Shown here: positions 2-20,105 of the stretch, one piece after another
Numbering within the stretch: the first letter of the stretch is position 1
Layout of the letters: every line of letters starts with the position of its first letter
IMG/VR virus record: IMGVR_UViG_3300008267_000465
Coordinates: 1 to 21,530 of that record
Length of the DNA: 21,530 nucleotides
Strand: one strand, 5' to 3'
From: a virus
The notes under the pieces: model-generated
The model's input: the letters and a program-made list of their open reading frames with translations, nothing else
Told to the model about the DNA's origin: nothing
Databases searched by the model: none
Translations under genes and position numbers: made by a program

Positions 2-499
2 AAAGTGGGCTTGGGCGTTGCTAATATCACGCTTGAATATCTTGAAAATCTTAATAGATTTACATTTACAGAAGACAAGACAGAAATCAAAAACAGAATG
101 GTTAAACAATTCCAGGCGTCTCAATCTGGAATTAGCCAAGATAAACTTGACGGCCGTGGTAAAATCCGTTTGGCTCACTATTTTGTGGAGATTGAGGTAT
201 ATGATTGGAGTGTAAGTGATGATGAAGAAGTAAACTTATCTAACGGAGTTAAAAATACAATGGTAACTCGCCTTGGTTTACAAGTTAGATTTACCGATGC
301 GGAAACAGGAGAAATTATAGCAGCATCAGGTTTAGGTGAAGCAAAAACAACTCGTGAATTAACATTCTTATCAGACGCAACAGTCGATCCAGTTAAATTT
401 AATCAATCAACAGTTTCAATAGCAACTAAAAAAGCTCTAGATATAGCTTGTGCTCGTATCTTAAAGCGTATGGTTACTAAAGGAGTATTCGAAAAATAA
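2..499 (+). CDS. CsgG-like secretion-pore protein, 3' part only
   Basis: The reading frame is open to the left edge, so the true start lies outside the window; the GTG at 5 is only the first possible start inside it. About 165 residues remain. The visible part resembles the C-terminal half of CsgG-family proteins: an acidic/aromatic strand region (AHYFVEIEVYDW), then a strand pair reading LGLQVRFTDAETGEIIAAS, which matches the CsgG pattern of a hydrophobic strand followed by a D-x-x-TGE-I turn, then a C-terminal helix ending ALDIACARILKRM. Known CsgG is a lipoprotein that forms the outer-membrane pore for curli export; the lipobox would be in the missing N-terminus. The downstream genes encode exported and outer-membrane proteins, which fits a role in the cell envelope. 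CsgG-like genes have been noted in marine phages. Family assignment is by motif resemblance only, so other CsgG-fold lipoproteins remain possible. Confidence 0.6.
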   Translation, partial: KVGLGVANITLEYLENLNRFTFTEDKTEIKNRMVKQFQASQSGISQDKLDGRGKIRLAHYFVEIEVYDWSVSDDEEVNLSNGVKNTMVTRLGLQVRFTDAETGEIIAASGLGEAKTTRELTFLSDATVDPVKFNQSTVSIATKKALDIACARILKRMVTKGVFEK

Positions 500-503
500 A
501 ATT

Positions 504-611
504 ATGGGAACAGCAGCAAAAAAGAAACGTCCAATGCGTAGTAAGCGCTCTGGAGTTAAAAAATTAGAACAAGTAAAAAAGAATTTAGCTATTCTTAGTA
601 AGTTAAAATAA
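504..611 (+). CDS. small basic hypothetical protein (35 aa)
   Basis: A 35-residue ORF (MGTAAKKKRPMRSKRSGVKK...) starts 5 bases after the CsgG-like gene and its TAA shares one base with the ATG of the next gene (TAATG). It is strongly basic (Lys/Arg rich, almost no acidic residues) with no signal peptide or membrane segment. The tight fit between two genes supports it being translated. The function is not recognised; a nucleic-acid or anionic-surface binding peptide is possible from charge alone. It has no Shine-Dalgarno sequence, only an A-rich upstream region, as for most genes here. Confidence 0.5.
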   Translation: MGTAAKKKRPMRSKRSGVKKLEQVKKNLAILSKLK

Positions 612-1420
612 TGAAAAAGTTATTACTTATATTATTGTTATCTCCATTATTTGTATTCTCACAAGATGCGAAGAATAGAGAAATGCAAATGCAAGTAAAT
701 AACTTACAACCACCTCCACCTCCACCCCCAGGACCTAAAGGTTCATTAGTTAAAACAAATGCATTTCTAACTTCATCTGATTTTGTATTCTTACAAAAAC
801 CAACTTATGTAGGTGGGTGGTTACAAGCAGTATCTTTGGGGTGGGGTAAATCATCAGCAAATGGTGTTTACTCTTATGGTGGTAATGGATTTATAACAAC
901 AGATGGTTCTCAAATAGGTATCTCAGGATTTGCATCTAAAGGTAATAATAACTTTTTTCTTTCTTATGTTGAGTTAGCTAAAAGTAGAACAACAACAATT
1001 ACTTATGCTAAATTATATAAAGGTAAATGGAATAAAGGATTTGGTATTAACTTGTCTTCATCATTTAGTCAAGTTGTAAAATCAGATTCATTACCACCAA
1101 TGCATATAGTGGCTCCTTCAGTAATGTTTTTTATTAATAGGCCATTTAGTGTAGGTAAATTTGTAATAACACCTGATTTATTACTTAGTTATTCAAATCC
1201 ATACTTCGATCCAGGTAAAAATTCAGTTACTTTTTTAGGTGCTGAAAGATGGGTAGGGTTTGAATGGGATCCAACATTTAATGCATTAGTAGGAACATCA
1301 GTAGGTTATAAAATAAGTAAACGATTTATATTATTAGTTGCTTATAAAGGCAACATTAATACTAATCCAAAATTTGGGTTAATGAATAATATTTCAATTG
1401 GTAACAAATTTAATTTTTAA
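611..1420 (+). CDS. predicted outer-membrane beta-barrel protein with Pro-rich N-terminus
   Basis: The 269-residue product starts with a clear signal peptide (MKKLLLILLLSPLFVFS|Q), with the likely cut before Gln18 as is common in Bacteroidota. A linker follows with seven consecutive prolines (residues 34-40). The rest is rich in alternating hydrophobic/polar strands with Gly, Ser, Asn and aromatic residues, and ends in Phe (NKFNF), as expected of an outer-membrane barrel recognised by the BAM machinery. Its C-terminal ~100 residues resemble those of the protein encoded at 1660-3009 (shared GYKISKRF / YSFKISKRF strand, and K/R-P-[FY] and NPY/SPY segments), so the two are probably paralogues. 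It is translationally close-packed with its neighbours. The precise function is unknown; pore, adhesin or surface-modifying roles are all open. Confidence 0.65.
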   Translation: MKKLLLILLLSPLFVFSQDAKNREMQMQVNNLQPPPPPPPGPKGSLVKTNAFLTSSDFVFLQKPTYVGGWLQAVSLGWGKSSANGVYSYGGNGFITTDGSQIGISGFASKGNNNFFLSYVELAKSRTTTITYAKLYKGKWNKGFGINLSSSFSQVVKSDSLPPMHIVAPSVMFFINRPFSVGKFVITPDLLLSYSNPYFDPGKNSVTFLGAERWVGFEWDPTFNALVGTSVGYKISKRFILLVAYKGNINTNPKFGLMNNISIGNKFNF

Positions 1421-1423
1421 AAC

Positions 1424-1660
1424 ATGAAACAAAAATCATTACTAATAACTGGTTTGTTGATTATATTATCTTTAATATTATTTGCTATGGTAGGGTGTGA
1501 GCCGGTTAGACACACTCGTATATCACATTCATATAGACCTAGAACATATGTTCAATTCGATCACTATTGGGTTAATAATAGACCTTATTATCAACCAAGA
1601 GTAATTATCATTCAACCAAAACAACCTCGTCGTCAGTCAAATAGGAGAGGCAAACACTAA
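1424..1660 (+). CDS. small predicted lipoprotein (78 aa)
   Basis: The N-terminus has two lysines, a long hydrophobic stretch and a lipobox-like M-V-G-C ending at Cys25, which predicts signal peptidase II cleavage and lipid attachment. The mature part is about 53 residues, rich in Tyr, Arg, His, Pro and Gln, and strongly basic at the end (QPRRQSNRRGKH). It has no recognisable domain. It sits 3 bases after the barrel gene, and its stop overlaps the next ATG (TAATG), so it probably belongs to the same operon and envelope assembly. It could be an accessory factor for one of the two barrels or for the CsgG-like pore; this is inference from context. Confidence 0.6.
   Translation: MKQKSLLITGLLIILSLILFAMVGCEPVRHTRISHSYRPRTYVQFDHYWVNNRPYYQPRVIIIQPKQPRRQSNRRGKH
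1643..1650 (+). promoter_or_regulatory. Shine-Dalgarno-like site before the stalk protein
   Basis: AGGAGAGG lies 9 bases upstream of the ATG at 1660. Most genes here have no such site, so it stands out. It also encodes Arg-Arg-Gly of the preceding gene, so it may be coincidental. Confidence 0.3.
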
Positions 1661-3009
1661 TGAAGAAATGGATATTACATTCATTAATATTAGTTTTGTT
1701 TTTATTGGCTAATAAAGCCAACGGCCAATCCATAATTCAAACATACATTGATCCCTGTGATAGCAAAGTCTACACAGTAGTAGTTCCCATCTCATCTAAT
1801 CAACCTGGAGTACTAGTGCTTATTAGAAATAAGTCTAGAATTTTTACATACGCTGACTTTACTTCAGGCACGGTAACTAAATGGATCAGTGAAATATTTG
1901 CAATACCATGTCCTGTAGCAACAACAGTATCACAAACAATAACTCAACAAGTATCTCAAGCAGCAGCTCAAGCAGCCTCATCAGCAGCAGGCGCAGCAGC
2001 TTCCTCAGCCGCATCCTCAGCAGCATCAAGTGCAGCAAGTGGAGCAGCTTCAGGAGCAGCATCAGGCGCCGCTTCAACATCTGCTTCGAGTGCATCAACA
2101 TCGGGAGCATCATCCTCCTCCCAATCTTCATCCTCATCTTCCCAATCCTCATCATCGGGTGGGGAGTCCTCTTCATCTACATCAAGTGGGGAGAGCAAAA
2201 GCGAAAGCTCAAGTTCAAGCAGCGAATCAAGCTCAGAGAGCAAAAGTGAAAGTAAATCTGAAAGTAAAGAAGAATCTAAATCTGAATCTAAAGAAGAAAA
2301 GAAAGAAGATAAAAAGGAAGAAAAAAAAGAGGAAAAGAAAGAAGAAAAGAAAAAAATAGCAATAAATCCTATAATGATAGGTTCAGATCTAACTGTAGGA
2401 CAAAACGCTACAGGTGGATTTACACCTGTTATATCACTTGGTGTGAACCAATCATCAGCCACAGGTGAATCAAGCTGGGGTGTAACAAGTATGATATGGG
2501 CTGATTTAAAGTCAATAGCGTTATCTGCTAATAAAAGTGAGTTAGTATTTAAAAACGGTCAATTAAAGTCAATTAACGCATATTCATACACTATAGCTCG
2601 TGTTAATGGTACTAATATGACATTTGGTGGTTACACATATATTAAACCTCATCCTAAGCATGGTACTTTAGGATTTAATGCTTCATATATTAATATTAAA
2701 TTAAAAGGAGAAAGTGACTACACATATTCATTTATGTCATCATTAACTGGATTTTGGACTAAACCATACCAAATAAACTTAAAAACAACATTATCACCAG
2801 GTGTATTCATAATGTCTTCACCTTATTCATACAATACAGGTACAGGCAATACTTGGAACTACAATATTAGTGGATTGGTTGGGTGTGGTTATTCATTTAA
2901 AATAAGTAAACGTTTTGGATTTCAAGCCGATTATAAAGTAATGGTATCTACAGTGCCAGGCTCTCCTATACTTAGTTTCTTCCTTATAGGTTCTAAGATG
3001 CAATTATAG
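1660..3009 (+). CDS. exported protein: A/S and E/K low-complexity stalk plus predicted C-terminal beta-barrel
   Basis: The 449-residue protein has a signal peptide (residues 1-22, cut likely before Gln23), a short N-terminal domain (about 24-95) with two cysteines (33 and 84) that could form a disulfide, then a long low-complexity region (100-232). That region passes from Ala/Ser repeats to Ser-rich, then Ser/Glu/Lys, then a Glu/Lys run. From about 233 to the end it has barrel-like alternating strands, similar to the C-terminus of the protein encoded at 611-1420. The architecture suggests an outer-membrane-anchored protein holding a flexible or helical stalk in the periplasm or outside the cell. 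Repeat content makes expansion and contraction by slippage likely. No exact family is recognised. The second barrel paralogue, the lipoprotein and the CsgG-like gene beside it suggest one envelope complex. Confidence 0.65.
   Translation: MKKWILHSLILVLFLLANKANGQSIIQTYIDPCDSKVYTVVVPISSNQPGVLVLIRNKSRIFTYADFTSGTVTKWISEIFAIPCPVATTVSQTITQQVSQAAAQAASSAAGAAASSAASSAASSAASGAASGAASGAASTSASSASTSGASSSSQSSSSSSQSSSSGGESSSSTSSGESKSESSSSSSESSSESKSESKSESKEESKSESKEEKKEDKKEEKKEEKKEEKKKIAINPIMIGSDLTVGQNATGGFTPVISLGVNQSSATGESSWGVTSMIWADLKSIALSANKSELVFKNGQLKSINAYSYTIARVNGTNMTFGGYTYIKPHPKHGTLGFNASYINIKLKGESDYTYSFMSSLTGFWTKPYQINLKTTLSPGVFIMSSPYSYNTGTGNTWNYNISGLVGCGYSFKISKRFGFQADYKVMVSTVPGSPILSFFLIGSKMQL
1957..2355 (+). 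repeat. low-complexity coding repeat (Ala/Ser to Glu/Lys)
   Basis: About 400 bases encode degenerate repeats: SSAA/SGAA units made of GCA/GCC/TCA/TCC codons, then Ser runs, then SES/KSE and EEKK units of GAA/AAA/TCT codons. The first half has more C and G than the flanking AT-rich DNA, while the second half is nearly pure purine. Long spurious ORFs in other frames and on the other strand result from this composition and are not genes. Confidence 0.85.
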
Positions 3010-3021
3010 ATATTTATATAC

Positions 3022-3654
3022 ATGAAGTATATATTATCATTATTGTTATTAATTACTGTTACATCTTATAGTCAAGATACAGTTACACTAGTTCATAAAG
3101 CGTATAAAACAACTTATAGTAAGTCAAAACACTATCCTGTTAAAGTAGAATGGTGGTTGACTAAAGCATCATTAACATGTGATGTTAAAGTTAAACGTGG
3201 GGATAAATTTATTCCTGATCCAAAATTATCATCTGAAACAAATTTACAAGCTGATTATACAGGTCAAGGATTTGATCGTGGTCATAACTTTCCTGCTGCT
3301 GATGCATCATGTGATCAAGTAGCAAATGAAGAATCATTTTATTTTAGTAATATGACTGCTCAATACCCAGCACTTAATCGTGGTGACTGGAAATCATTAG
3401 AAACATTAGCTCGTGATTACGCTATTAAAGAAGATTCAGTACATGTTTGGTGTGGCTCAGTAGGTGTAGCTAAAAAAATAGGCACAACATCAGTTCCAAC
3501 ACAATGTTGGAAAGTACTTTATTTTGTTAAGTCAAAAGAGTGGATGGCGTTTTTATTTGATAATAACACAACTAAAGCAGACGGACTTAAAAATAATGAA
3601 GCTACAGTCGCGGACATTGAAAAGCTAACTGGGTTTAAATTTAAAAAGAAGTAA
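3022..3654 (+). CDS. exported DNA/RNA non-specific endonuclease (NUC1/Serratia-type)
   Basis: The 210-residue protein starts with a signal peptide (MKYILSLLLLITVTSYS|Q, cut before Gln18). The nuclease signature DRGH is at 85-88, followed by N-F-P-A-A-D. Downstream, FSNMTAQYPALNRGDWKSLE (108-127) carries the conserved Asn110 and the Mg-binding-type Asn119. In this family the histidine of DRGH is the general base and the later Asn binds the metal; products are short 5'-phosphorylated oligonucleotides. Four cysteines in the mature part could form disulfides, fitting an oxidising compartment. The gene is 12 bases after the stalk-protein gene. An exported nuclease in a phage could digest released host DNA, extracellular DNA or the DNA of a superinfecting phage; the sequence cannot decide between these. 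Confidence 0.85.
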   Translation: MKYILSLLLLITVTSYSQDTVTLVHKAYKTTYSKSKHYPVKVEWWLTKASLTCDVKVKRGDKFIPDPKLSSETNLQADYTGQGFDRGHNFPAADASCDQVANEESFYFSNMTAQYPALNRGDWKSLETLARDYAIKEDSVHVWCGSVGVAKKIGTTSVPTQCWKVLYFVKSKEWMAFLFDNNTTKADGLKNNEATVADIEKLTGFKFKKK

Positions 3655-4708: not shown

Positions 4709-5002
4709 ATGAACAAATCTACATTTATAATAGTAATTGCTCTTGTAGTTGTATTTGGGGTGATAACAGGTTATCAAAACTATAAAATCAACACTTTAGA
4801 AAGTCAAAGTAAAATAGAAGTTTTAGTAGGTGGTGATATTGTAAAGGATTCTCTAATTAAACTAACTGATAGTCTGAATGATGAATTATTTATTCGTCAT
4901 ATTGAAAATGGAAGATATGAATTAACTTTTGAACATTTAAAAGAAGTAAATCCAAAGTTAGGTAAAGAGATGGAAGAGTGGATGGCACACGAAACAGAAT
5001 AA
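4709..5002 (+). CDS. membrane-anchored hypothetical protein (97 aa)
   Basis: It has one N-terminal membrane segment (about residues 5-21, FIIVIALVVVFGVITGY) preceded by Lys, then a mostly helical, charged region up to residue 97. The likely topology is a short inside N-terminus with a soluble domain outside. There is no lipobox or cleavage site of the type seen in the other exported proteins, so it is probably anchored. It is not recognised. It lies 3 bases after the preceding gene and so in the same unit. Confidence 0.65.
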   Translation: MNKSTFIIVIALVVVFGVITGYQNYKINTLESQSKIEVLVGGDIVKDSLIKLTDSLNDELFIRHIENGRYELTFEHLKEVNPKLGKEMEEWMAHETE

Positions 5003-11169: not shown

Positions 11170-12609
11170 ATGAAAGAAGGTTACATTCCGCAGGCGGACA
11201 GAAAAAAAATTATACTATTGAGTGACGACATTAGATTCACTTCAGGTATAGCTACAATAGCTAGAGAAATAGTAGTAGGCACATCACACAAATTTAATTG
11301 GGTTAACGTAGGTGGCGCTATTGATCATCCAGATAAGGGTAAACGTTTGGATTTAAGTGCTGATACTAATGGTCACAATGACATTGATGATGCTAGTGTT
11401 TTTATTTATCCAGTATCAGGTTATGGCGACGCTCAATTAATTCGCCAATTAATAAAAATAGAAAAACCAGATATGGTAATGTTCTTTACCGATCCGAGAT
11501 ATTGGACTTGGTTATTTCAAATTGAAAATGAAATTAGAAGAAAAGTACCGATGGTTTATCTTAATATTTGGGATGACTATCCAGTACCAATGTATAATGA
11601 AGCGTTTTATGAATCATGTGATGGTTTAATGGCCATATCAAAACAAACACTTAATATAAATAAAATAGCATTAGGTGATAAAGTAAAAGGTAAAGTATTA
11701 AGTTATGTACCACATGGTATAAATGAAAATATATTCTGCCCAGTTACTGATGAAATTAAATTAGATGAAGTTAGAAAAAATATCTTTGGAGATAGAAAAT
11801 ATGATTTTGTTTTAATGTTTAATTCTAGAAATATTAGACGTAAATCAGTTCCAGATACATTAGCAGCATTTAAAGTATTTTTAGATATGTTACCTAAAGA
11901 TAAAGCTGATAAATGTGCTTTTATATTACATACTCAACCTATTGATGAACATGGTACTGATTTATATGCAGTACGAGATATGTTATTTACAGAAGAACAA
12001 TGTAGCCAAATATATTTCTCAAGCGGTCGTATCCCATCTCATGATATGAATTTAATCTATAACATATCAGATGCTGCTATATTATTAAGTTCAAATGAAG
12101 GATGGGGATTATCATTAACTGAAGCTATGATGTGTGGTAAACCAATTATAGCAAACGTTACAGGTGGTATGCAGGATCAAATGAGATTTGAAAATGAAAA
12201 AGGTGAATGGGTTGATTTTGATGAGAACTTCTGTAGCAATCATTTTGGTACTTATAGAAAGCATGGTAAATGGGTGTTCCCAATATTCCCAAGTAATAGA
12301 AGTATTCAAGGTTCAGTTCAAACACCATATATATTCGATGATAGAGCTGATTTTAGAGACGCGGCAACAGCAATAGCAGAAGCATACGCTACTAAAATGC
12401 ACGGCCCAGAAGAATATAAAGAAATTTGTAAAGCCGCTCGTGAGTGGGTTACATCAGAAGAATCAGGTATGTCATCTTCAAACATGTGTAAGAATGTTAT
12501 AAATCATGTTAATGAAGTTTTGGCTACATGGGAACCAAAACATAAATTCGAGTTAATAAAAACAGAGCCACTTAAAAGAAAACATATTCGTCACAAATTA
12601 GTATATTAG
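11170..12609 (+). CDS. glycosyltransferase, GT-B fold, GT4-type (479 aa)
   Basis: The protein has two Rossmann-like halves. In the C-terminal half, YVPHGIN (179-185), FNSRNIRRKSVPDTLAAF (217-234) and SSNEGWGLSLTEAMMCGKPIIA with the E310-x7-E318 motif are hallmarks of retaining GT4 enzymes, where they bind the nucleotide-sugar donor. The N-terminal half (SDDIRFTSGIATIAREI) has the glycine-containing loop expected near the acceptor site. A C-terminal extension of about 100 residues follows the core. It would transfer a sugar from NDP-sugar in the cytoplasm. It begins the glycan block and is followed after 5 bases by another GT4-type gene. Donor and acceptor cannot be read from sequence. Confidence 0.85.
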   Translation: MKEGYIPQADRKKIILLSDDIRFTSGIATIAREIVVGTSHKFNWVNVGGAIDHPDKGKRLDLSADTNGHNDIDDASVFIYPVSGYGDAQLIRQLIKIEKPDMVMFFTDPRYWTWLFQIENEIRRKVPMVYLNIWDDYPVPMYNEAFYESCDGLMAISKQTLNINKIALGDKVKGKVLSYVPHGINENIFCPVTDEIKLDEVRKNIFGDRKYDFVLMFNSRNIRRKSVPDTLAAFKVFLDMLPKDKADKCAFILHTQPIDEHGTDLYAVRDMLFTEEQCSQIYFSSGRIPSHDMNLIYNISDAAILLSSNEGWGLSLTEAMMCGKPIIANVTGGMQDQMRFENEKGEWVDFDENFCSNHFGTYRKHGKWVFPIFPSNRSIQGSVQTPYIFDDRADFRDAATAIAEAYATKMHGPEEYKEICKAAREWVTSEESGMSSSNMCKNVINHVNEVLATWEPKHKFELIKTEPLKRKHIRHKLVY

Positions 12610-12614
12610 TAGTT

Positions 12615-13892
12615 ATGAAACCATTATTGTTTATTAGTTGTCCAATAGAGACAATGTCGGGGTACGGAGCAAGAAGTAGAGATATAGTTAAAGCAATCTT
12701 AAAACATGATAAGTACGATGTTAAAGTTTTATCTCAACGTTGGGGTAATACAGCGTATAATGCTTTAGATTTAAACAACCCAGATGATAAAATCTTATAT
12801 GATTTAATTTGGAAAGAACAGCATTTACCTAAACAACCTGATGTTTGGATTCAAATTACAATACCAAATGAATTCCAACCAGTGGGTAAATTTAATATTG
12901 GTATCACAGCAGGTATTGAAACTACTATATGTGACCCAAGTTGGATTGAAGGTTTAAATAGAATGAATTTAAATTTAGTATCATCTAATCATTCTAAAAA
13001 AGTATTTGAAGACTCAGCATTTGAACAACGTGATAAAAATACTAATCAGCTTATTAAAGCGATTAAATTAGAAAAACCAATAGAAGTATTATTTGAGGGA
13101 GCTGATTTAAATAAATATTTTTATATTGATGATAATGATCTAGAAGAAACAGATTTAATTTTATCATTAGATGAGATTAAAGAAGATTTTTGTTTCTTAT
13201 TTGTAGGCCATTGGCTGCAAGGACAAATAGGTGAGGATAGAAAGAATGTAGGCTATATGATTAAGGCATTCTTAGAAACATTTAAAAATAAAAAGAAAAA
13301 ACCAGCATTAATATTAAAAACAAGTAGTGCTAATAATTCTATATTAGATAGAGATGAGGTACTCAAGAAGATAGATGCCATTAAAAATACAGTTAAAGGC
13401 GATTTACCAAACGTTTATTTACTGCATGGTGATTTAGATGATAAGGATATGAATGACTTATATAACCATGATAAAGTTAAGACCATGATTAGTTTTACTA
13501 AGGGTGAAGGTTTTGGTAGACCATTATTAGAATTTAGTTTAGTTAAAAAACCTATTATAGCTAGTAATTGGAGTGGACATTTAGATTTCTTAAATCCAGA
13601 ATTTAACACACTTGTAGGAGGTGGTTTAACTAATGTACATCCATCAGTGGCTGTTGAAAATATGATATTAGAAGAAGCACAATGGTTTACACCTACTGAT
13701 GCTAGTGTAGCTGATGCTCTTGAGAATAATTTTAAAGATTATAACAAGTATGCTGAGTTGGCTAAACGTCAAACACATTATGCTAAAACTAACTTCTCAT
13801 TTGATAAAATGGCTGAGGCATTAGATACTATACTTGATAGAGTACCTAGACAAGTAGAAATTAAATTACCTAAACTTAAAAAACTATCATAA
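12615..13892 (+). CDS. glycosyltransferase, GT-B fold, GT4-type (425 aa)
   Basis: The start MKPLLFISCPIETMSGYGARSRDIV has the glycine-rich loop common in GT4 proteins. The donor half includes VGHWLQGQIGEDRKNVGYMIKAF (197-219), YLLHGDL (269-275) and FTKGEGFGRPLLEFSLVKKPIIA with E298-x7-E306, followed by SNWSGHLDFL. It is divergent from the preceding GT4-type protein, so it probably has a different donor or acceptor. It ends in TAATG shared with the next gene. A cytoplasmic enzyme is expected; no membrane segment is seen. Confidence 0.85.
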   Translation: MKPLLFISCPIETMSGYGARSRDIVKAILKHDKYDVKVLSQRWGNTAYNALDLNNPDDKILYDLIWKEQHLPKQPDVWIQITIPNEFQPVGKFNIGITAGIETTICDPSWIEGLNRMNLNLVSSNHSKKVFEDSAFEQRDKNTNQLIKAIKLEKPIEVLFEGADLNKYFYIDDNDLEETDLILSLDEIKEDFCFLFVGHWLQGQIGEDRKNVGYMIKAFLETFKNKKKKPALILKTSSANNSILDRDEVLKKIDAIKNTVKGDLPNVYLLHGDLDDKDMNDLYNHDKVKTMISFTKGEGFGRPLLEFSLVKKPIIASNWSGHLDFLNPEFNTLVGGGLTNVHPSVAVENMILEEAQWFTPTDASVADALENNFKDYNKYAELAKRQTHYAKTNFSFDKMAEALDTILDRVPRQVEIKLPKLKKLS

Positions 13893-14149
13893 TGACTAGT
13901 AAAGAGTTTATTATATGGTTAAGAGGATTTATAACAGGTTCTAATAATTATAATTTAACTCCATCAGGATGGGAAGCATTAAAAAGTAATTTAGAACAAG
14001 TAAACGATGTTAAAGTACCACCTTGTGTAGGACATGCTATAGCAAGTGATGAGGAAGAAAGTAATAAACGAATGGATATTATAGGACAAAATGGTAATGA
14101 AGGATTACATTATGATGTAACACCAATACCAAGTAAAAAAATATATTAA
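13892..14149 (+). CDS. small conserved-looking phage protein (85 aa)
   Basis: The N-terminal half (MTSKEFIIWLRGFITGSNNYNLTPSGWEALKSNL) resembles a short helical domain seen in many phage hypothetical proteins. The second half is acidic and Gly/Asn rich and probably flexible. It has no catalytic signature. It interrupts the glycan block together with the next gene; overlap with the GT4-type gene (TAATG) indicates co-translation. Confidence 0.7.
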   Translation: MTSKEFIIWLRGFITGSNNYNLTPSGWEALKSNLEQVNDVKVPPCVGHAIASDEEESNKRMDIIGQNGNEGLHYDVTPIPSKKIY

Positions 14150-14150
14150 T

Positions 14151-14579
14151 ATGAATGATAAATTAGTTATATGCGCTAAATGCGGTTCGGACGCTTGTTA
14201 CGAACATGGAATAGAAAAAATAACAGTTTGGAGTTGTATGGGATGTGGATTTACAACTAACGAACTAATGTTAGAAGGTAGTCAATTAGTAAATGAATCA
14301 GAAGAGGTAATGCCTGAACTGTATAAAGATATTAAGTTCATAGACAACAAAAAACAGGTTTGGTTTCCAACAGTTATAAATGTCCATGATAAAGGTACTG
14401 TGTTTGTAAATGGTACAAATAAAGATACTTGGGGATGGGCAGGCATTAAGGCTATTGAAACAACAGATGAAGAAAAAACTAAATTTAAGGGTGCTACTCA
14501 CAAATCAGATCCTACAACATTAAAAATGTTTGATCAAAATTCATTTGATGAGGCTTGTGCTTATATAGGATTAATTTAA
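14151..14579 (+). CDS. zinc-ribbon phage protein (142 aa)
   Basis: An N-terminal zinc ribbon is formed by C8-x2-C11 and C29-x2-C32 (AKCGSDACYEHGIEKITVWSCMGCGF), with C16 and H19 nearby. The C-terminal part (DIKFIDNKKQVWFPTVINVHDKGTVFVNGT...) looks like a small beta-rich domain with several tryptophans. I associate it with conserved proteins of unknown function in marine T4-like phages. There is no glycosylation signature, so its place in the sugar block may simply reflect phage gene order. Confidence 0.7.
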   Translation: MNDKLVICAKCGSDACYEHGIEKITVWSCMGCGFTTNELMLEGSQLVNESEEVMPELYKDIKFIDNKKQVWFPTVINVHDKGTVFVNGTNKDTWGWAGIKAIETTDEEKTKFKGATHKSDPTTLKMFDQNSFDEACAYIGLI

Positions 14580-14589
14580 AATTTAAGTT

Positions 14590-15198
14590 ATGGCTAATAT
14601 TAGTTTTGCAATTACAGCATGTAATGAGCATATTGAGTTAGATCGTTTATTAAAACAACTAACTAATAATATTAAAAAGGGAGATGAAATAGTAGTTCAA
14701 TTAGATATTACTGCAACACAAGAAGTTAAAGATGTAGTTAGTAAATATAAACTAATAAATTATATACATCCATTAAATAATGACTTCGCTACATTTAAAA
14801 ATAATCTTAAAAGTATTTGTGTTAACGAATGGATATTCTTTATAGACGCTGATGAACATTTAAGTGATGACTTATTAGACAACGTACATGGGATACTTGA
14901 TGCTAATAAAGGTATAGTAGATGTTATATCAGTACCTAGAATCAACACTGTAGAAGGTTTAACTAGAGATCATATTGACAAATGGAGATGGTTTGTAGAT
15001 GAAAATGGATATGTTAATTATCCTGATTATCAAACTCGTATATGTGCTAATAAAGATAGTATTGTATGGGTTAATAAAGTACATGAGCGTTTAACAGGAT
15101 GGAAAACAACAGCTAACTTGCCTTATGGATATGATTTAATTCATCCTAAAACAATTGAAAGACAAGAACGTCAAAACAACTACTATAACACTATATGA
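14590..15198 (+). CDS. glycosyltransferase, GT-A fold, GT2-type (202 aa)
   Basis: The start MANISFAITACNE is a typical GT2 first strand, and WIFFIDADEH (81-90) holds the D-x-D metal/donor motif at D86-A-D88. Later NYPDYQTRICANKDSIVWVNKVHERLTGW matches the Q-x-R and V-x-x-V-H-E motifs of small GT2 enzymes. At 202 residues it is a minimal catalytic domain. It transfers a sugar from an NDP-sugar; the acceptor is unknown. Its TGA overlaps the ATG of the deacetylase gene (ATGA), suggesting coupled synthesis. Confidence 0.85.
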   Translation: MANISFAITACNEHIELDRLLKQLTNNIKKGDEIVVQLDITATQEVKDVVSKYKLINYIHPLNNDFATFKNNLKSICVNEWIFFIDADEHLSDDLLDNVHGILDANKGIVDVISVPRINTVEGLTRDHIDKWRWFVDENGYVNYPDYQTRICANKDSIVWVNKVHERLTGWKTTANLPYGYDLIHPKTIERQERQNNYYNTI

Positions 15199-15887
15199 TC
15201 AACTTAACTATAGCTATTGATGATGTTAATCCTAAAAAGGATTGGAGGATATTTGGAGACAAAACTGAAAAGTATTTATTTGACTTAAATAAGCAGTTTG
15301 GAGCTAAATTTACTTTATTTGTACCTTCAAATCATCATGGTGATGCTAAATTATCTGATAATAAGAATTGGGTAAATGAATTACTCGATGCAGGTATATT
15401 TGAATTAGCATCGCACGGTCATTACCATCAAACAAGTAATAAAGATAGGTTGGGTGAAATGGAATTTTTTGAATTACAAGACCCAAAACAAATCACAGAT
15501 CGTCTCTTACTAATGCAAAATGAATGGAGAGAAGTAGGTGTTGATCCTAAAGGATGGAGGAATCCAGGTTGGATATGTTCGCCACAATCATGTGATCAAT
15601 TAAAACAGACATTTGAATACGCTGCTATACATTATGAACATAATAGAGGTTTAGATTGGGGTACATGTAAAACAGTTTATGGTGCGGATGGTATTCATCA
15701 AACTGATATTAATATACATAACAATGATGCTATAATGTTTCAATCTCATATATTTGGAGATTGGAATCATAATGTTTGGAATGAAGATAATTTTGATCAA
15801 TTTAAAGCAAGTCTTGATTATTTAGTTACTAATAATGAAATTAATTTTGTTACAATAAAAGAATTTATAGATGGTAAGAACACTTAA
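15195..15887 (+). CDS. polysaccharide deacetylase-like (NodB-fold) protein
   Basis: Motifs of the NodB/CE4-type deacetylase fold are in order: D9-D10 (AIDDVNP), SHGHYH with H74 and H78, RNPGW (122-126), and QSHIF with H185. The Asp and two His of the first motifs would bind a divalent metal, and the later His would assist catalysis. The 230-residue size fits a single domain. No signal peptide is present, so the likely substrate is a cytoplasmic precursor such as an N-acetyl sugar on a nucleotide or lipid carrier rather than cell-wall polymer. Neighbouring GT2-type and methyltransferase genes overlap it, pointing to stepwise tailoring of one sugar. Confidence 0.8.
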   Translation: MINLTIAIDDVNPKKDWRIFGDKTEKYLFDLNKQFGAKFTLFVPSNHHGDAKLSDNKNWVNELLDAGIFELASHGHYHQTSNKDRLGEMEFFELQDPKQITDRLLLMQNEWREVGVDPKGWRNPGWICSPQSCDQLKQTFEYAAIHYEHNRGLDWGTCKTVYGADGIHQTDINIHNNDAIMFQSHIFGDWNHNVWNEDNFDQFKASLDYLVTNNEINFVTIKEFIDGKNT

Positions 15888-16542
15888 ATCCAATCATGAG
15901 AATATTGAGAAATGGAATTATAAATTTTGGAATAGTTTTGGAATACCATTACAAGGTAGTCACTCATCTCATATGTGGGCTCAAGCATTAACTCACTTAG
16001 ATAAAGTATATGAGTTAATAAAATGGAAAACAATGGCTGATATAGGCTGTGGTTTCCCTCCTTTAGACTTACAAAAATTACCTATGTTCTCAGGTATTGA
16101 AACTGTAATTAGAGCTGATGGTAGTCAATATATAGTAGATAATTTACCTGACGCTCGTATATCTAATTTTAATAAAGAACCTTTACCATTACAAGATAAT
16201 GAAGTTGATTTTGCTATATCATTTGAAGTAATAGAACATATGTTTTCAACTCATGGTTTCTTAAGTGAGTTAGCTAGAATAAGTAAGTATGGGTTTATGA
16301 TTAGTAAACCAAATACAGACTATGATGGCTTAGACTCTCATTGGTATGGTGAAAAATATTTCTTCGATACAGGTACTCCTTTATTTGATGGTGATGTTAG
16401 ATTTGAACATATTAATTTTATTCCAAACTATGAATTATTTGGTTTTGGAAAAGTATTAGGTTATGATGTTACATTACTAGACCAACCAGATGAGGAAATG
16501 CAATTCTTCTTATTTGTTAAAAAAGAATTAATAGCAGAATAA
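15871..16542 (+). CDS. SAM-dependent methyltransferase (class I, Methyltransf_11-like)
   Basis: Motif I is MADIGCGFPPLD (DIGCG at 57-61), the post-I strand ends near RADGS, and the core motif FAISFEVIEHMF (114-125) is typical of small-molecule methyltransferases. The N-terminal ~50 residues (HENIEKWNYKFW...SHSSHMW) may form the substrate lid. It overlaps the deacetylase gene by 17 bases and shares TAATG with the next gene. Given this setting a sugar O- or N-methyltransferase is most likely, but fatty-acyl or other targets cannot be excluded. Confidence 0.8.
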   Translation: MVRTLKSNHENIEKWNYKFWNSFGIPLQGSHSSHMWAQALTHLDKVYELIKWKTMADIGCGFPPLDLQKLPMFSGIETVIRADGSQYIVDNLPDARISNFNKEPLPLQDNEVDFAISFEVIEHMFSTHGFLSELARISKYGFMISKPNTDYDGLDSHWYGEKYFFDTGTPLFDGDVRFEHINFIPNYELFGFGKVLGYDVTLLDQPDEEMQFFLFVKKELIAE

Positions 16543-17453
16543 TGAAAATAGCTTTTTTTACTGAAATGCTCTTTCAAGGTAAAATACCTCGTAATCATGA
16601 TAACATGAGAACTGAGTTTGCTTGGATGGTAGCTTTAGATGCTGATCACTATAATATAAAATCTATACCTGAAGAGAATTATGACTTAGGTATTGTTATT
16701 ATACCTAAAAAGAATCCTGACTTTAATATAGATAATTTAAAATTAAGTTGTACTAAAGTAGCTGTAATGCAAGAAGGACCTAATTGGTTTTGGCAAGACT
16801 ATGATTTGTCTAAACAAGTATGGTATTATAATACTTTAACATCAGCTGATATTATTTTTGTTCATAACACAGTTGATAAAACATATTATGAAGGTTTAAC
16901 CAATCATAAGGATGTTAGGGTACTTCAGTCACTAATGATTGAAGACGCTATTGATGTAGATGCTTTAATGCCTCACAAATATAGAGGTGAAGTAATAATA
17001 GGAGGTAATTTTGTTTCATGGTATGGTGGATTTGATTCTTATACTGTAGCAAATGAAATATCAGATAAAGTATTTGCTCCATCAATGGGTAGAAAACAAG
17101 TAGGTGAAGAACAATTATTAACTCACTTACCTTATTTAACTTGGAGGGATTGGATTACTCAATTAAGTAAATTCAAATATGGAGTTCATTTAATGAGAAC
17201 ACATGCCGCAGGTACATTTGCTCTAAACTGTGCTTACCTAGGTATACCTTGTATTGGTTATTATGGATTGGATACTCAAGAATTATGTCATCCTGATTTA
17301 ACAGTTGAGGTAGGAGACTTGGTTACTGCAAAGAAATTAATTAATTTACTTAAGAATGATTCTCAATTCTATGATGTTCAAAGTAGAGCAGCTAGATATG
17401 GTTACGAGAGAGAATATAGTGAGGAACAATTTATAAAACGATTTAACAAATAA
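16542..17453 (+). CDS. GT-B-like glycosyltransferase-related protein (303 aa)
   Basis: The protein has two alpha/beta halves. In the second, HLMRTHAAGTFALNCAYLGIPCIGYYGLDTQELCHPDLTVEVGD (216-259) has the layout of a GT-B donor site (helix, 'GIPCIGYYG' strand and loop), but the E-x7-E motif of GT4 enzymes is missing. It has no DxD either. It could be a divergent glycosyltransferase or a relative that has lost activity. Close overlap (TAATG) with a methyltransferase on both sides supports a glycan role. The family is not recognised with certainty. Confidence 0.6.
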   Translation: MKIAFFTEMLFQGKIPRNHDNMRTEFAWMVALDADHYNIKSIPEENYDLGIVIIPKKNPDFNIDNLKLSCTKVAVMQEGPNWFWQDYDLSKQVWYYNTLTSADIIFVHNTVDKTYYEGLTNHKDVRVLQSLMIEDAIDVDALMPHKYRGEVIIGGNFVSWYGGFDSYTVANEISDKVFAPSMGRKQVGEEQLLTHLPYLTWRDWITQLSKFKYGVHLMRTHAAGTFALNCAYLGIPCIGYYGLDTQELCHPDLTVEVGDLVTAKKLINLLKNDSQFYDVQSRAARYGYEREYSEEQFIKRFNK

Positions 17454-18091
17454 TGAAAGAAAGTCAAAATACACCAATTGAAGATTTAGATAGATTATCA
17501 TATCCAGCTTCATCAACGTCAGTAGATAGATATATATTTGCTAACCATTGGACTAAAGGTAAAACTGTATTAGATGCGGCGACAGGTAAAGGATATGGTG
17601 CTGGTATATTATTAAGTTTAGGAGCTAAAAAAGTAGTTGGAATAGATATTGATGTTGAAGGTATAGAGGAAGCTAAAACTAGAATGGCTAGTCCTAATTG
17701 TGATTATTTAGTTTGTGATATATTTAACTTACAAAACCATTTTAAAGAAAATGAATTTGAAGTTTGTACATCAATAGAAACATTTGAACATTTACCTCCA
17801 GAACGTATTGATGAGTATTTACAAAGTTTAAGACATTGTACATCAGAAACTATTGTTATTACTACTCCAAAACGTAAAACACCAATTTGGAAGTATGATG
17901 GTGGTACTCATTTATATGAGTATGATCAAAATGAAATGTATGATATATTAACTAAAAATTTTAAAGATGATGATGTGACAGCTATGGGATTAGTTGAACA
18001 TCGATTACCAAACGGACAGTGGGGTACTGATATCACTGCTGATTTAAGTCAAGCTTGGGTCTTCTTTTGTATAGTCAATCTAAAAAAATAA
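17453..18091 (+). CDS. SAM-dependent methyltransferase (class I)
   Basis: Motif I is VLDAATGKGYGAG (39-51), motif II VVGIDIDVEGI (61-71), then a likely adenine-binding VCDIF (D89), and motif IV-like TSIETFEHLPP (106-116). The later segment TPKRKTPIWKYDGGTHLYEYDQ resembles small-molecule and sugar methyltransferases. The N-terminal DRLSYPASSTSVDRY is a typical lead-in of this group. It is different from the methyltransferase at 15871, so two methyl transfers or positions are likely. It is followed after 2 bases by the epimerase gene. Confidence 0.8.
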   Translation: MKESQNTPIEDLDRLSYPASSTSVDRYIFANHWTKGKTVLDAATGKGYGAGILLSLGAKKVVGIDIDVEGIEEAKTRMASPNCDYLVCDIFNLQNHFKENEFEVCTSIETFEHLPPERIDEYLQSLRHCTSETIVITTPKRKTPIWKYDGGTHLYEYDQNEMYDILTKNFKDDDVTAMGLVEHRLPNGQWGTDITADLSQAWVFFCIVNLKK

Positions 18092-18093
18092 TT

Positions 18094-18945
18094 ATGAAAG
18101 CATTAGTAACAGGTGGAGCAGGGTTTGTAGGTACAAATCTAATTAGAGCACTACTAAAGAAAAATTATACTATAGTATCTGTTGATAATTATAAAACAGG
18201 TACTCAATTAAATCATCAACCTGGAGTTAGATATATTAACTTCGATATTAGAAGTATAACTGATTATTCAGCATGGGGTGAGTTTGATGTAGTGTATCAT
18301 TTAGCTGCTATAGCTAGAATACAACCATCATTTATAAATCCAATTGATTATTTTACAACTAACGCTAATGGTACTTTACAAATAGCTCAATATTGTGCTA
18401 ACAATAATATACCACTTGTATATGCTGGTAGTAGTTCTCATCACTCAGGTAAGTTTAAAAATCCTTATACATTTAGTAAAGACACAGGTGAGGAAATAAT
18501 TCATTTATATCAAGAACATTTTGGATTAAAAGCATCTATAGCTAGATTCTATAATGTATATGGTCCTCATCATTTAAAAGAAGGTGGTTATACTACCTTA
18601 ATTGGTGCTTGGGAAAAACAAGTTGAAGAACATCAACCATTAACTATATATGGTGATGGTACTAAACGTAGAGATTTTACTCATGTTAATGATATTGTAG
18701 ATGGATTAATTAAAATAGAGGAAAAACAAGCATGGGGTAATGATTTTGAATTAGGTAGAGGTAAAAACTATTCAGTTAAAGAAATAGCTGATATGTTTGA
18801 ACAAGAAGTAGAATATAAAGATGATAAACCAGGCGAAGCACAAAATACATTATGTACGGACACATTAGCTAAAACATTATTAGGATGGGAACCAAAACAT
18901 AATATTGAGGATTATATAAAAAATTATTTTAAATGGACAAAATAA
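18094..18945 (+). CDS. NAD-dependent sugar epimerase/dehydratase (extended SDR)
   Basis: Start at 18094 (MKALVTGGAGFVG) is preferred over an upstream ATG at 18055, because the NAD-binding strand should be at the N-terminus and the extra residues overlap the previous gene. Motifs: GGAGFVG (7-13), D31 for the adenosine ribose, YHLAAIA (68-74), catalytic Ser (AGSSS, 111-115), Y125-x3-K129, RFYNVYGP (151-158) and KRRDFTHVND (191-200), which binds the NDP-sugar in UDP-glucose 4-epimerase-like enzymes. The 283-residue length fits. It would epimerise, or oxidise and dehydrate, an NDP-sugar to supply a donor for the neighbouring glycosyltransferases. Which sugar cannot be told. Confidence 0.9.
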   Translation: MKALVTGGAGFVGTNLIRALLKKNYTIVSVDNYKTGTQLNHQPGVRYINFDIRSITDYSAWGEFDVVYHLAAIARIQPSFINPIDYFTTNANGTLQIAQYCANNNIPLVYAGSSSHHSGKFKNPYTFSKDTGEEIIHLYQEHFGLKASIARFYNVYGPHHLKEGGYTTLIGAWEKQVEEHQPLTIYGDGTKRRDFTHVNDIVDGLIKIEEKQAWGNDFELGRGKNYSVKEIADMFEQEVEYKDDKPGEAQNTLCTDTLAKTLLGWEPKHNIEDYIKNYFKWTK

Positions 18946-20105
18946 CATTTGTACTACCAAGTAGAAATAACTTAGAGTTTTTAAAGTTAGCTTATACTTC
19001 AATTCGTAATTTAGAAACCAAACATGAAGTATTAGTTTTAGATGATGCTAGTATAGATGGTACTCAAGAATGGATTAAGTCATTAAACGATGAAGACCTA
19101 ATTACATATCACAACCCAGGACCTGAACGTATTGGTATTGTAGGTATGTTTGATAAAGGTATTGAAATGGCTAGAACAGAAATTATATTTGCATTCCATG
19201 CTGATATGGTAGCGTGTAAAGATCTAGATAAAAACATTTTAAAACACTTAAAACCAGGTGTAGTAGTAAGTGCAACTAGAGTTGAACCACCATTACATCC
19301 ATCTGGAGTAGAGAAGATAACTGTTGATTTTGGAATTGAGGCTGATCAATTTGACTTTAATAAATGGTATACTGAAAGTGAATTATTAAAACAAGATAAA
19401 ACAACTGAAGGTATATTTGCACCTTGGTGTATGTATAAATCTGATTTCTTAGGACATGATGAGTTATTTGCTCCTCAGTCTAAAGAAGATAGTGACTTAT
19501 TTAATCGTTTTATTTTAAATGGTTATCAAGTAATTCAATCATGGGATGCTTTAGTTTATCACTTTACTAGTAGAGGAAGTAGATTTAATACACATGCTGG
19601 AGGCGCAGCAGGTAAGAATAGTGAAGAATGGATTCATACAACAAATAAAAACGCTAGAAACTTTATTCGTAAGTGGGGACATTTTGTTAAGCATGATGAA
19701 TATATGAAACCAATTGTACCTCATAAGTACAATATTGGATTTGTAGTTGAGAAATGTACTTTACAATTAATGACTGCTTTAGAACCATGGTGTAGTACTT
19801 TATATACTGATGATGAAATGTGTGTTATTGAATCACATTATTTAGATTTGGAACAACCCAGCACTAAAATTGACTTAAAACAACGTTTAAAGTTATTTAA
19901 ACACACTGCTCCTAATAATGACATAATAGTTGAGTTCGATGGTTCTAAGTTGGATCAAGAGCATTTTAATATATTAATGCAACTACCTGAAATTATAATG
20001 GAGTCAGGTGAAGTAGGTAAATTTGAATTAGGTATATTTAAAGTAGATATTCGCTCATTAACTACTTATGAACATGATTTAATTCATATTTATAACAAAC
20101 AGTAA
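18933..20105 (+). CDS. glycosyltransferase, GT-A fold, GT2-type, with C-terminal extension (390 aa)
   Basis: The start MDKITFVLPSRNNLEFL and VLVLDDASIDGT (33-44) are typical of GT2. The metal-site region is FAFHADM (86-92, an H-A-D form rather than D-x-D), and SKEDSDLFNRFILNGYQV with E185-D186 is the catalytic-base ED region. VYHFTSRGSRF (208-218) is a common GT2 ending. About 170 residues follow, including a possible second small domain (NIGFVVEKCTLQL...DIIVEFDGSKLDQEHFN) that looks beta-rich and may bind acceptor or partner. It overlaps the epimerase gene by 13 bases and ends the glycan block. Confidence 0.8.
   Translation: MDKITFVLPSRNNLEFLKLAYTSIRNLETKHEVLVLDDASIDGTQEWIKSLNDEDLITYHNPGPERIGIVGMFDKGIEMARTEIIFAFHADMVACKDLDKNILKHLKPGVVVSATRVEPPLHPSGVEKITVDFGIEADQFDFNKWYTESELLKQDKTTEGIFAPWCMYKSDFLGHDELFAPQSKEDSDLFNRFILNGYQVIQSWDALVYHFTSRGSRFNTHAGGAAGKNSEEWIHTTNKNARNFIRKWGHFVKHDEYMKPIVPHKYNIGFVVEKCTLQLMTALEPWCSTLYTDDEMCVIESHYLDLEQPSTKIDLKQRLKLFKHTAPNNDIIVEFDGSKLDQEHFNILMQLPEIIMESGEVGKFELGIFKVDIRSLTTYEHDLIHIYNKQ

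Follow-up and report, generated by a model that had tools for sequence, protein, structure and literature searches.

The window analysed here, 21,530 bases in length, corresponds to bases 1-21530 of the 37,362-base IMG/VR virus record IMGVR_UViG_3300008267_000465, and at the extreme start of the contig it carries a cassette of genes for exported and envelope proteins. The gene set noticed in the first-pass annotation was confirmed as real and was extended by comparison with relatives: to judge from the sequences, a large and widespread group of Bacteroidota phages shares conserved genes whose products are exported to the outer membrane and probably to the cell surface, with which the phage probably rebuilds the host cell exterior during infection. 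The cassette open reading frames (ORFs; 2-3654) are all located on the + strand and lie almost head to tail, and the five envelope or exported genes and one tiny ORF described earlier were all present in the order then given:

2..499, + strand: exported protein with a predicted CsgG fold, 5'-truncated (family A4; full-length relatives of about 238 amino acids have a signal peptide)
504..611, + strand: tiny basic ORF of 35 amino acids, MGTAAKKKRPMRSKRSGVKKLEQVKKNLAILSKLK, from the sequence; its stop codon and the ATG that follows share bases in TAATG
611..1420, + strand: 269-amino-acid protein with a signal peptide, predicted 12-strand outer-membrane barrel (AlphaFold model, matches by the in-house structure aligner VIA)
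1424..1660, + strand: 78-amino-acid lipoprotein with lipobox AMVGC and an Arg/Pro/Tyr/Gln-rich tail (sequence; weak similarity to family lipo97)
1660..3009, + strand: 449-amino-acid stalked protein with signal peptide, head, stalk and putative C-terminal barrel (paralogy to 611-1420)
3022..3654, + strand: 210-amino-acid exported DNA/RNA non-specific endonuclease (Endonuclease_NS, PF01223, E 4e-42; DRGH...N...E pattern intact)

The contig begins within gene 1, of which about 73 N-terminal residues are absent, and the genes located upstream of the CsgG-fold gene in relatives are lost from this record, beyond the contig end. Signal peptides are predicted recurrently across the cassette families: the median best 11-residue N-terminal hydropathy was 2.7-3.0 in the CsgG-like, barrel, cohesin/lectin and nuclease families, and -0.2 to 1.0 by the same measure in phage enzymes such as NrdA/NrdB and thioredoxin.

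Distribution and gene order of the cassette

Candidate loci of the CsgG-like family numbered at least 560 in the viral collection, with more obtained when a distant member was used as query, and the 269-amino-acid barrel and the stalked barrel as queries returned 12 and 124 viral contigs, respectively. From these searches 55 representative loci, with CsgG-like proteins less than 92% identical to one another and including that of Flavobacterium phage immuto, were compared. When the genomes of 84,980 bacterial and archaeal species were scanned by pattern, only two metagenome-assembled contigs came up, and the cassette is therefore regarded as phage-borne. The isolates found were Flavobacterium phages vB_FspM_immuto only; in vB_FspM_immuto_2-6A the same cassette comprises immuto26A_12 to _19, whose annotations go no further than hypothetical, lectin, cohesin or nuclease protein. 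The 269-amino-acid barrel had no relative among annotated phage records. One 254 kb contig binned as uncultured Bacteroidetes (L258, CAIWBA010000291.1) carries a cassette protein, and is probably a mis-binned jumbo phage.

Gene order is strongly conserved across strongly diverged phages. The stalked-barrel gene was located 3' of the CsgG-fold gene in 28 of the 31 loci fetched by CsgG alone and upstream of it in none, and all 20 loci fetched by the barrel had the CsgG-fold gene on the 5' side; the two genes often overlap or abut, with a gap of -3 to +5 bases. The first-pass annotation had made its case depend on the order being shared by other Bacteroidota phages, which it is, since the CsgG-fold/stalked-barrel order is kept and never reversed. 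In its 5' part the usual order is a small CsgG-fold paralogue, a secreted cohesin/lectin protein, one or more lipoproteins, a 105-amino-acid protein with one transmembrane (TM) segment, and small TM proteins. The CsgG-fold gene and the stalked barrel follow in the 3' part, with a lipoprotein and an extra barrel between them and a nuclease, a second lectin protein and an endolysin after them as members not present in every locus. The 105-amino-acid protein (L101:8419-8742 and relatives, 51/55 loci), which has a Gln/Asn-rich stretch and a conserved C-terminal Trp, is nearly as constant as the CsgG-fold gene.

For the small lipoprotein the earlier assignment was upheld by the lipobox and by a weak match (E 1.7e-5) to lipo97, a lipoprotein family at the equivalent position in relatives. 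The exported nuclease was likewise correctly named, with its signal peptide, DRGH and LNRG.W..LE motifs and intact N and E positions, but its place as a core part of the set was rejected, as a nuclease gene lies near the cassette in 15/55 loci and on either side; from its sequence and distribution it appears to be an optional exported neighbour.

Predicted CsgG fold and outer-membrane barrels

The gene 1 product is 51.5% identical over 99% to immuto26A_17. A full-length relative (L005) was modelled by AlphaFold from 52 sequences with a predicted local distance difference test (pLDDT) score of 77.9 and a predicted template modelling (pTM) score of 0.71. In a Foldseek search with this model the best 23 PDB chains were CsgG without exception (E down to 1.9e-7), and VIA aligned 180 residues to CsgG with Z 12.5 and a root-mean-square deviation of 5.2, ahead of the other fold members Cj1090c (Z 10.9), PelC (9.8) and LptE (8.8); the top viral match was likewise annotated CsgG. 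Because these best matches of the model are CsgG, the 2-499 product is assigned a predicted CsgG fold, as the first-pass annotation had expected of a structure prediction. A second, smaller CsgG-fold paralogue of 145-160 amino acids was present in 47/55 loci (hhalign 96% to the first).

Sequence profiles gave a different answer. The profile search for PF03783 that had been proposed for the first protein returned no match for any of eight family members tested, and at a threshold as loose as E≤10 none of 20 phage records scored, although control genomes did. Pfam gave no match on the CsgG-fold protein, neither the CsgG-like nor the barrel proteins had a meaningful match in Pfam, PHROGs or NCBIfam, and a PDB sequence search with the profiles of both families gave noise only. 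Profile-profile comparison with 12 genuine CsgG proteins was collinear and non-significant (probability 0.3-5%). The equivalents of the membrane hairpins comprise 20-21 residues (ca. 34% charged) and 16-18 residues, compared with 27 (7-19% charged) and 28 residues in true CsgG, and are thus by sequence shortened by 6-12 residues, with about double the share of charged residues. CsgF (PF10614) was above cut-off in 0/20 phage records; for CsgE/curlin, no curlin match occurred among the Pfam families listed, no dedicated whole-record search having been made. A lipobox-like motif was found in 9/55 CsgG-fold proteins, the signal peptide mostly ending in ..AQ, and the window copy is truncated at this end.

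Assignment to the PF03783 CsgG family, and with it to the CsgG transporters, was therefore not made, given the absent profile match, the short and charged hairpins and the lack of CsgF. Of the "CsgG-like pore" proposed earlier, the fold stands, and the pore is not supported by the sequence comparisons. By analogy, a periplasmic and perhaps ring-forming partner of the adjacent barrel, rather than a pore in its own right, fits better. PelC-PelB and LptE-LptD are likewise pairs of a CsgG-type or alpha-beta periplasmic protein and a beta-barrel, and they differ in that the barrel here has about 12 strands and one stalked paralogue, with the partnership suggested by operon coupling. Compared with CsgG of the bacterial curli channel (type VIII secretion system), the likeness is one of fold, whereas the sequence is at or below the limit of profile-profile detection, the hairpins are not conserved, and most members lack a lipobox-like motif.

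The same evidence bears on the proposal that the cassette encodes a self-sufficient secretion channel, a diverged curli system in which a CsgG-type pore exports unfolded low-complexity substrates such as the Ser/Ala stalk protein. CsgG is the best Foldseek match and exceeds the other fold members in VIA score, the stalk is nearly without aromatic residues, and cassettes of CsgG with CsgF are known in pelagimyophages and Melnitz. We nevertheless consider the channel quite unlikely, in view of the hairpins, the missing CsgF and PF03783 signals, the rarity of the lipobox, and the lack of curlin repeats among the Pfam families listed.

CsgG and CsgF genes have already been described in pelagimyophage HTVC008M and methylophage Melnitz (PMC7029224, PMC9004378), which resemble the present case in having a phage-borne operon that groups a CsgG-fold protein with other exported proteins, with an unexplained purpose in infection. 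Their CsgG proteins are 39-44% identical to E. coli CsgG and are accompanied by recognisable CsgF, curlin-repeat proteins and a cyclase, whereas the cassette here has no CsgF, no PF03783 match and shortened hairpins, with barrels and cohesin/lectin proteins instead. A further csgG entry, in the 1,499-base GenBank record OR851715.1 ("Salmonella phage S.Kent 1-2-1"), is 95.8% identical to E. coli CsgG and is probably host DNA deposited as phage.

The AlphaFold model of the 269-amino-acid protein (pLDDT 67.5 overall, mostly 70-88 across the barrel; pTM 0.63) has 11-12 meander strands, and the protein additionally carries a conserved N-terminal MQMQVNNLQ-polyproline segment. The top VIA matches were type Va autotransporter translocator barrels (Z 15-16.6, best 16.6/16.5), followed by KdgM (Z 14.7), NanC and the amyloid exporter FapF (13.8). 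Sequence identity to the matched structures was 4-13%, and the structural match therefore indicates a predicted 12-strand outer-membrane barrel and nothing further. The barrel of the 449-amino-acid protein was assigned through paralogy to this stalkless model, as the C-terminal halves (47-269 and 233-449) are 24% identical by BLAST (E 1.2e-6) and profile A3 matches the 269-amino-acid family at E 1e-9 to 1e-12; the model and the paralogy together agree with the two related barrels, one long-stalked, that had been proposed. The barrel of the 449-amino-acid protein is preceded by a conserved head, about 75 residues long and marked by a DPC...PC cysteine pattern, and by a stalk of about 150 amino acids consisting of a Ser/Ala part and then a Glu/Lys part. 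Nearly all of the 148 stalk residues are Ser, Ala, Glu, Lys, Gly, Thr or Gln, with four large hydrophobic or aromatic residues, and library matches on the stalk were dismissed as low-complexity noise.

The arrangement of signal peptide, head, linker and C-terminal 12-strand barrel, and the rank of the type Va barrels among the VIA matches, could also mean that the stalked barrel is autotransporter-like, its flexible stalk presenting the small head with its cysteines, and that the other cassette genes are incidental. We regard this as very unlikely: functionally unrelated 12-strand meander barrels (KdgM, NanC, FapF) score 13-15 too, so that the likeness is common to other barrel families, the barrel modelled was the stalkless paralogue, no autotransporter Pfam match was obtained, and the head could equally be placed in the periplasm.

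Secreted partners encoded in relatives

A cohesin/lectin protein family was present in 53/55 loci. Pfam searches of 89 secreted proteins of the relatives identified Cohesin in 46 (best E 1.4e-12), Lectin_C in 28 (2.6e-17), the sorting domain of the type IX secretion system (T9SS) in 25 (1.7e-11) and Dockerin_1 in 22 (2.3e-4), with several of the matches exceeding curated cut-offs; for Cohesin this Pfam count is the one to use, as the count by an iterated home-made profile may drift. The typical set consists of a cohesin protein with a sorting domain and a separate lectin-dockerin protein. A signal peptide combined with a C-terminal sorting domain (TIGR04183/PF18962) above the curated cut-off was found in L009, L013, L144 and immuto26A_15. 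Among the 20 phage records (up to 336 kb), 11 had a T9SS sorting domain above cut-off, exactly one each, and those whose position could be checked all sit inside the cassette. A diversity-generating retroelement behind the C-type lectins was rejected, as no reverse transcriptase occurred in the 20 phage records.

Loci without a sorting domain have at the same place one or two small lipoproteins (113-130 amino acids) with a C-terminal domain (CTD) that is sorting-domain-like. By hhalign, the lipoprotein domains matched the sorting domain with probabilities of 91% and 78%, compared with at most 3.3% for 25 control families, and Por_Secre_tail was the commonest match of the CTD-like lipoproteins, below cut-off, in Pfam (15/36) and NCBIfam (8/36). 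In the 55 loci, the sorting domain was found in 25, the CTD-like lipoproteins in 27, both in none, and neither in three; the lipoprotein form is that of L211, L225 and L240, the nearest relatives of the window. The tree requires at least five switches between the two forms, and each contrast with a lipoprotein change runs opposite to the sorting domain, as a swap predicts. The swap is only suggestive, because after ancestry correction four well-supported independent contrasts remain, too few for significance.

Phage genes with type A sorting domains have been reported before, as T9SS cargo of the cryoconite "Cryophage" (PMC7468147) and, in gut phages, as proteins with T9SS domains encoded close to BACON genes (PMC6949934). 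These are scattered enzymes, PA14 or BACON genes, whereas here a single cohesin scaffold, replaced in other lineages by CTD-like lipoproteins, lies within a conserved envelope cassette. As in cellulosomes, cohesin and dockerin are located on separate secreted proteins, here of one cassette and together with sugar-binding domains; unlike in cellulosomes, no cellulolytic enzymes were seen, the proteins are phage-encoded, the dockerin assignment is weak and the pairing is putative. The open-access papers searched yielded no account of cohesin-dockerin proteins in phages or of the present cassette (subscription journals not covered).

Probable role at the host surface

The roles proposed so far for phage CsgG, a long-standing puzzle, are channels, amyloid "sibling capture" and lysis. 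In the present case the virus probably rebuilds the cell exterior, because what it is predicted to export comprises barrels, a CsgG-fold partner and, in relatives, sugar-binding and cohesin proteins with a host secretion tag. We put at about even chances that the window genes are the 3' half of an outer-surface display cassette that uses the host T9SS, for superinfection exclusion or adhesion. That the whole is a complete phage surface-assembly machine, with a CsgG-fold/barrel complex and a cohesin-dockerin lectin layer exported by the host T9SS, the sorting domain being fused or carried on a lipoprotein, is plausible at somewhat less than even chances. The envelope assembly proposed in the first-pass annotation is thus retained in its fold, barrels, lipoprotein and order, and had missed the main exported partners (cohesin, dockerin, lectin and T9SS domain), which lie beyond the contig end; the role at the host surface during infection that it considered possible, including the blocking of superinfecting phages, is kept on sequence grounds as the favoured purpose.

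Domains, export signals, gene order and fold come from sequences, profiles or models; for location, partnership, timing and purpose we infer the following course in the infected cell. The phage proteins would be exported via Sec, the barrels and the lipoprotein inserting in the outer membrane and anchoring a surface layer, and the CsgG-fold protein would support the stalked barrel from the periplasm, as PelC does PelB or LptE does LptD. The host T9SS would bring the cohesin scaffold to the cell surface, and there the scaffold would retain the dockerin-tagged lectin by cohesin-dockerin pairing. The altered surface may mask receptors so that other phages cannot adsorb or, alternatively, may bind polysaccharide or neighbouring cells before lysis, and the nuclease, as an optional exported companion, might destroy free or incoming DNA.

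Several points weigh against surface display. The cohesin, dockerin, lectin and T9SS genes have no copy on the window's own contig and are deduced from relatives; the sorting domain on the scaffold is absent from half of the relatives, the window's nearest included; T9SS-dependent export of the scaffold is a prediction from sequence; the dockerin matches are weak (best E 2.3e-4); and a sign test over the four ancestry-corrected contrasts gave p 0.25. In addition, a GH19 endolysin is frequently close to the cassette (24/55 loci, at a distance of up to 8 kb), as expected of a lysis module.

This last point gives real support to lysis as the main rival. The barrels, lipoprotein and CsgG-fold protein would then open or weaken the outer membrane when infection ends, together with the GH19 endolysin and with holin-like and spanin-like proteins, and the nuclease would thin released host DNA. 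A small protein with two TM segments is present in 40 loci and a spanin-like protein in 11, and a lysis role was proposed earlier for CsgG of Melnitz (PMC9004378). On balance we judge a lysis module unlikely, as it leaves the cohesin, dockerin, lectin and T9SS domains unexplained, the endolysin is variable in position (up- or downstream) when the CsgG-fold/barrel pair is nearly fixed, and the small membrane proteins match no holin family. Two loci (L248:10713-11324 and L252:4217-4825) encode, adjoining the GH19 endolysin, a protein of about 200 amino acids with an N-terminal TM segment or lipobox, an extended middle and a strand-rich C-terminus, which has no library match and resembles a one-piece spanin spanning both membranes. 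In the window, a 97-amino-acid protein with one TM segment (4709-5002) weakly matches the Rz-like spanins of phrog_739 (E 0.007).

Phage tails commonly contain lectin, PA14 and laminin-G-type domains, and the proteins could accordingly be virion-associated adhesins or else unselected host-derived cargo. Either is scarcely likely, given signal peptides and lipoboxes all through the set, the host-secretion sorting domain, and an order conserved in strongly diverged phages.

The host-surface display favoured here would, if true, mean that viruses build an extracellular protein layer on the host with the host's own secretion system, that the CsgG fold is separated from pore formation in phages, and that the surface-assembly machine is a new kind of viral host-surface remodelling. 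The cassette is widespread and occurs in an isolate, a phage whose Flavobacterium host is in culture, and its domains lead to predictions that can be tested, namely that export depends on the T9SS, that cohesin pairs with dockerin, and that the CsgG-fold protein has a barrel as its partner.

The remaining genes of the window are of phage type, and include a clamp loader, an exonuclease, a phosphoesterase, glycosyltransferases and an HNH endonuclease. Downstream of the cassette, a block at 11170-20105 contains glycosyltransferases, methyltransferases, a nucleotide-sugar epimerase and a polysaccharide-deacetylase-like ORF, and may serve to modify sugars on the host surface or else the phage DNA.

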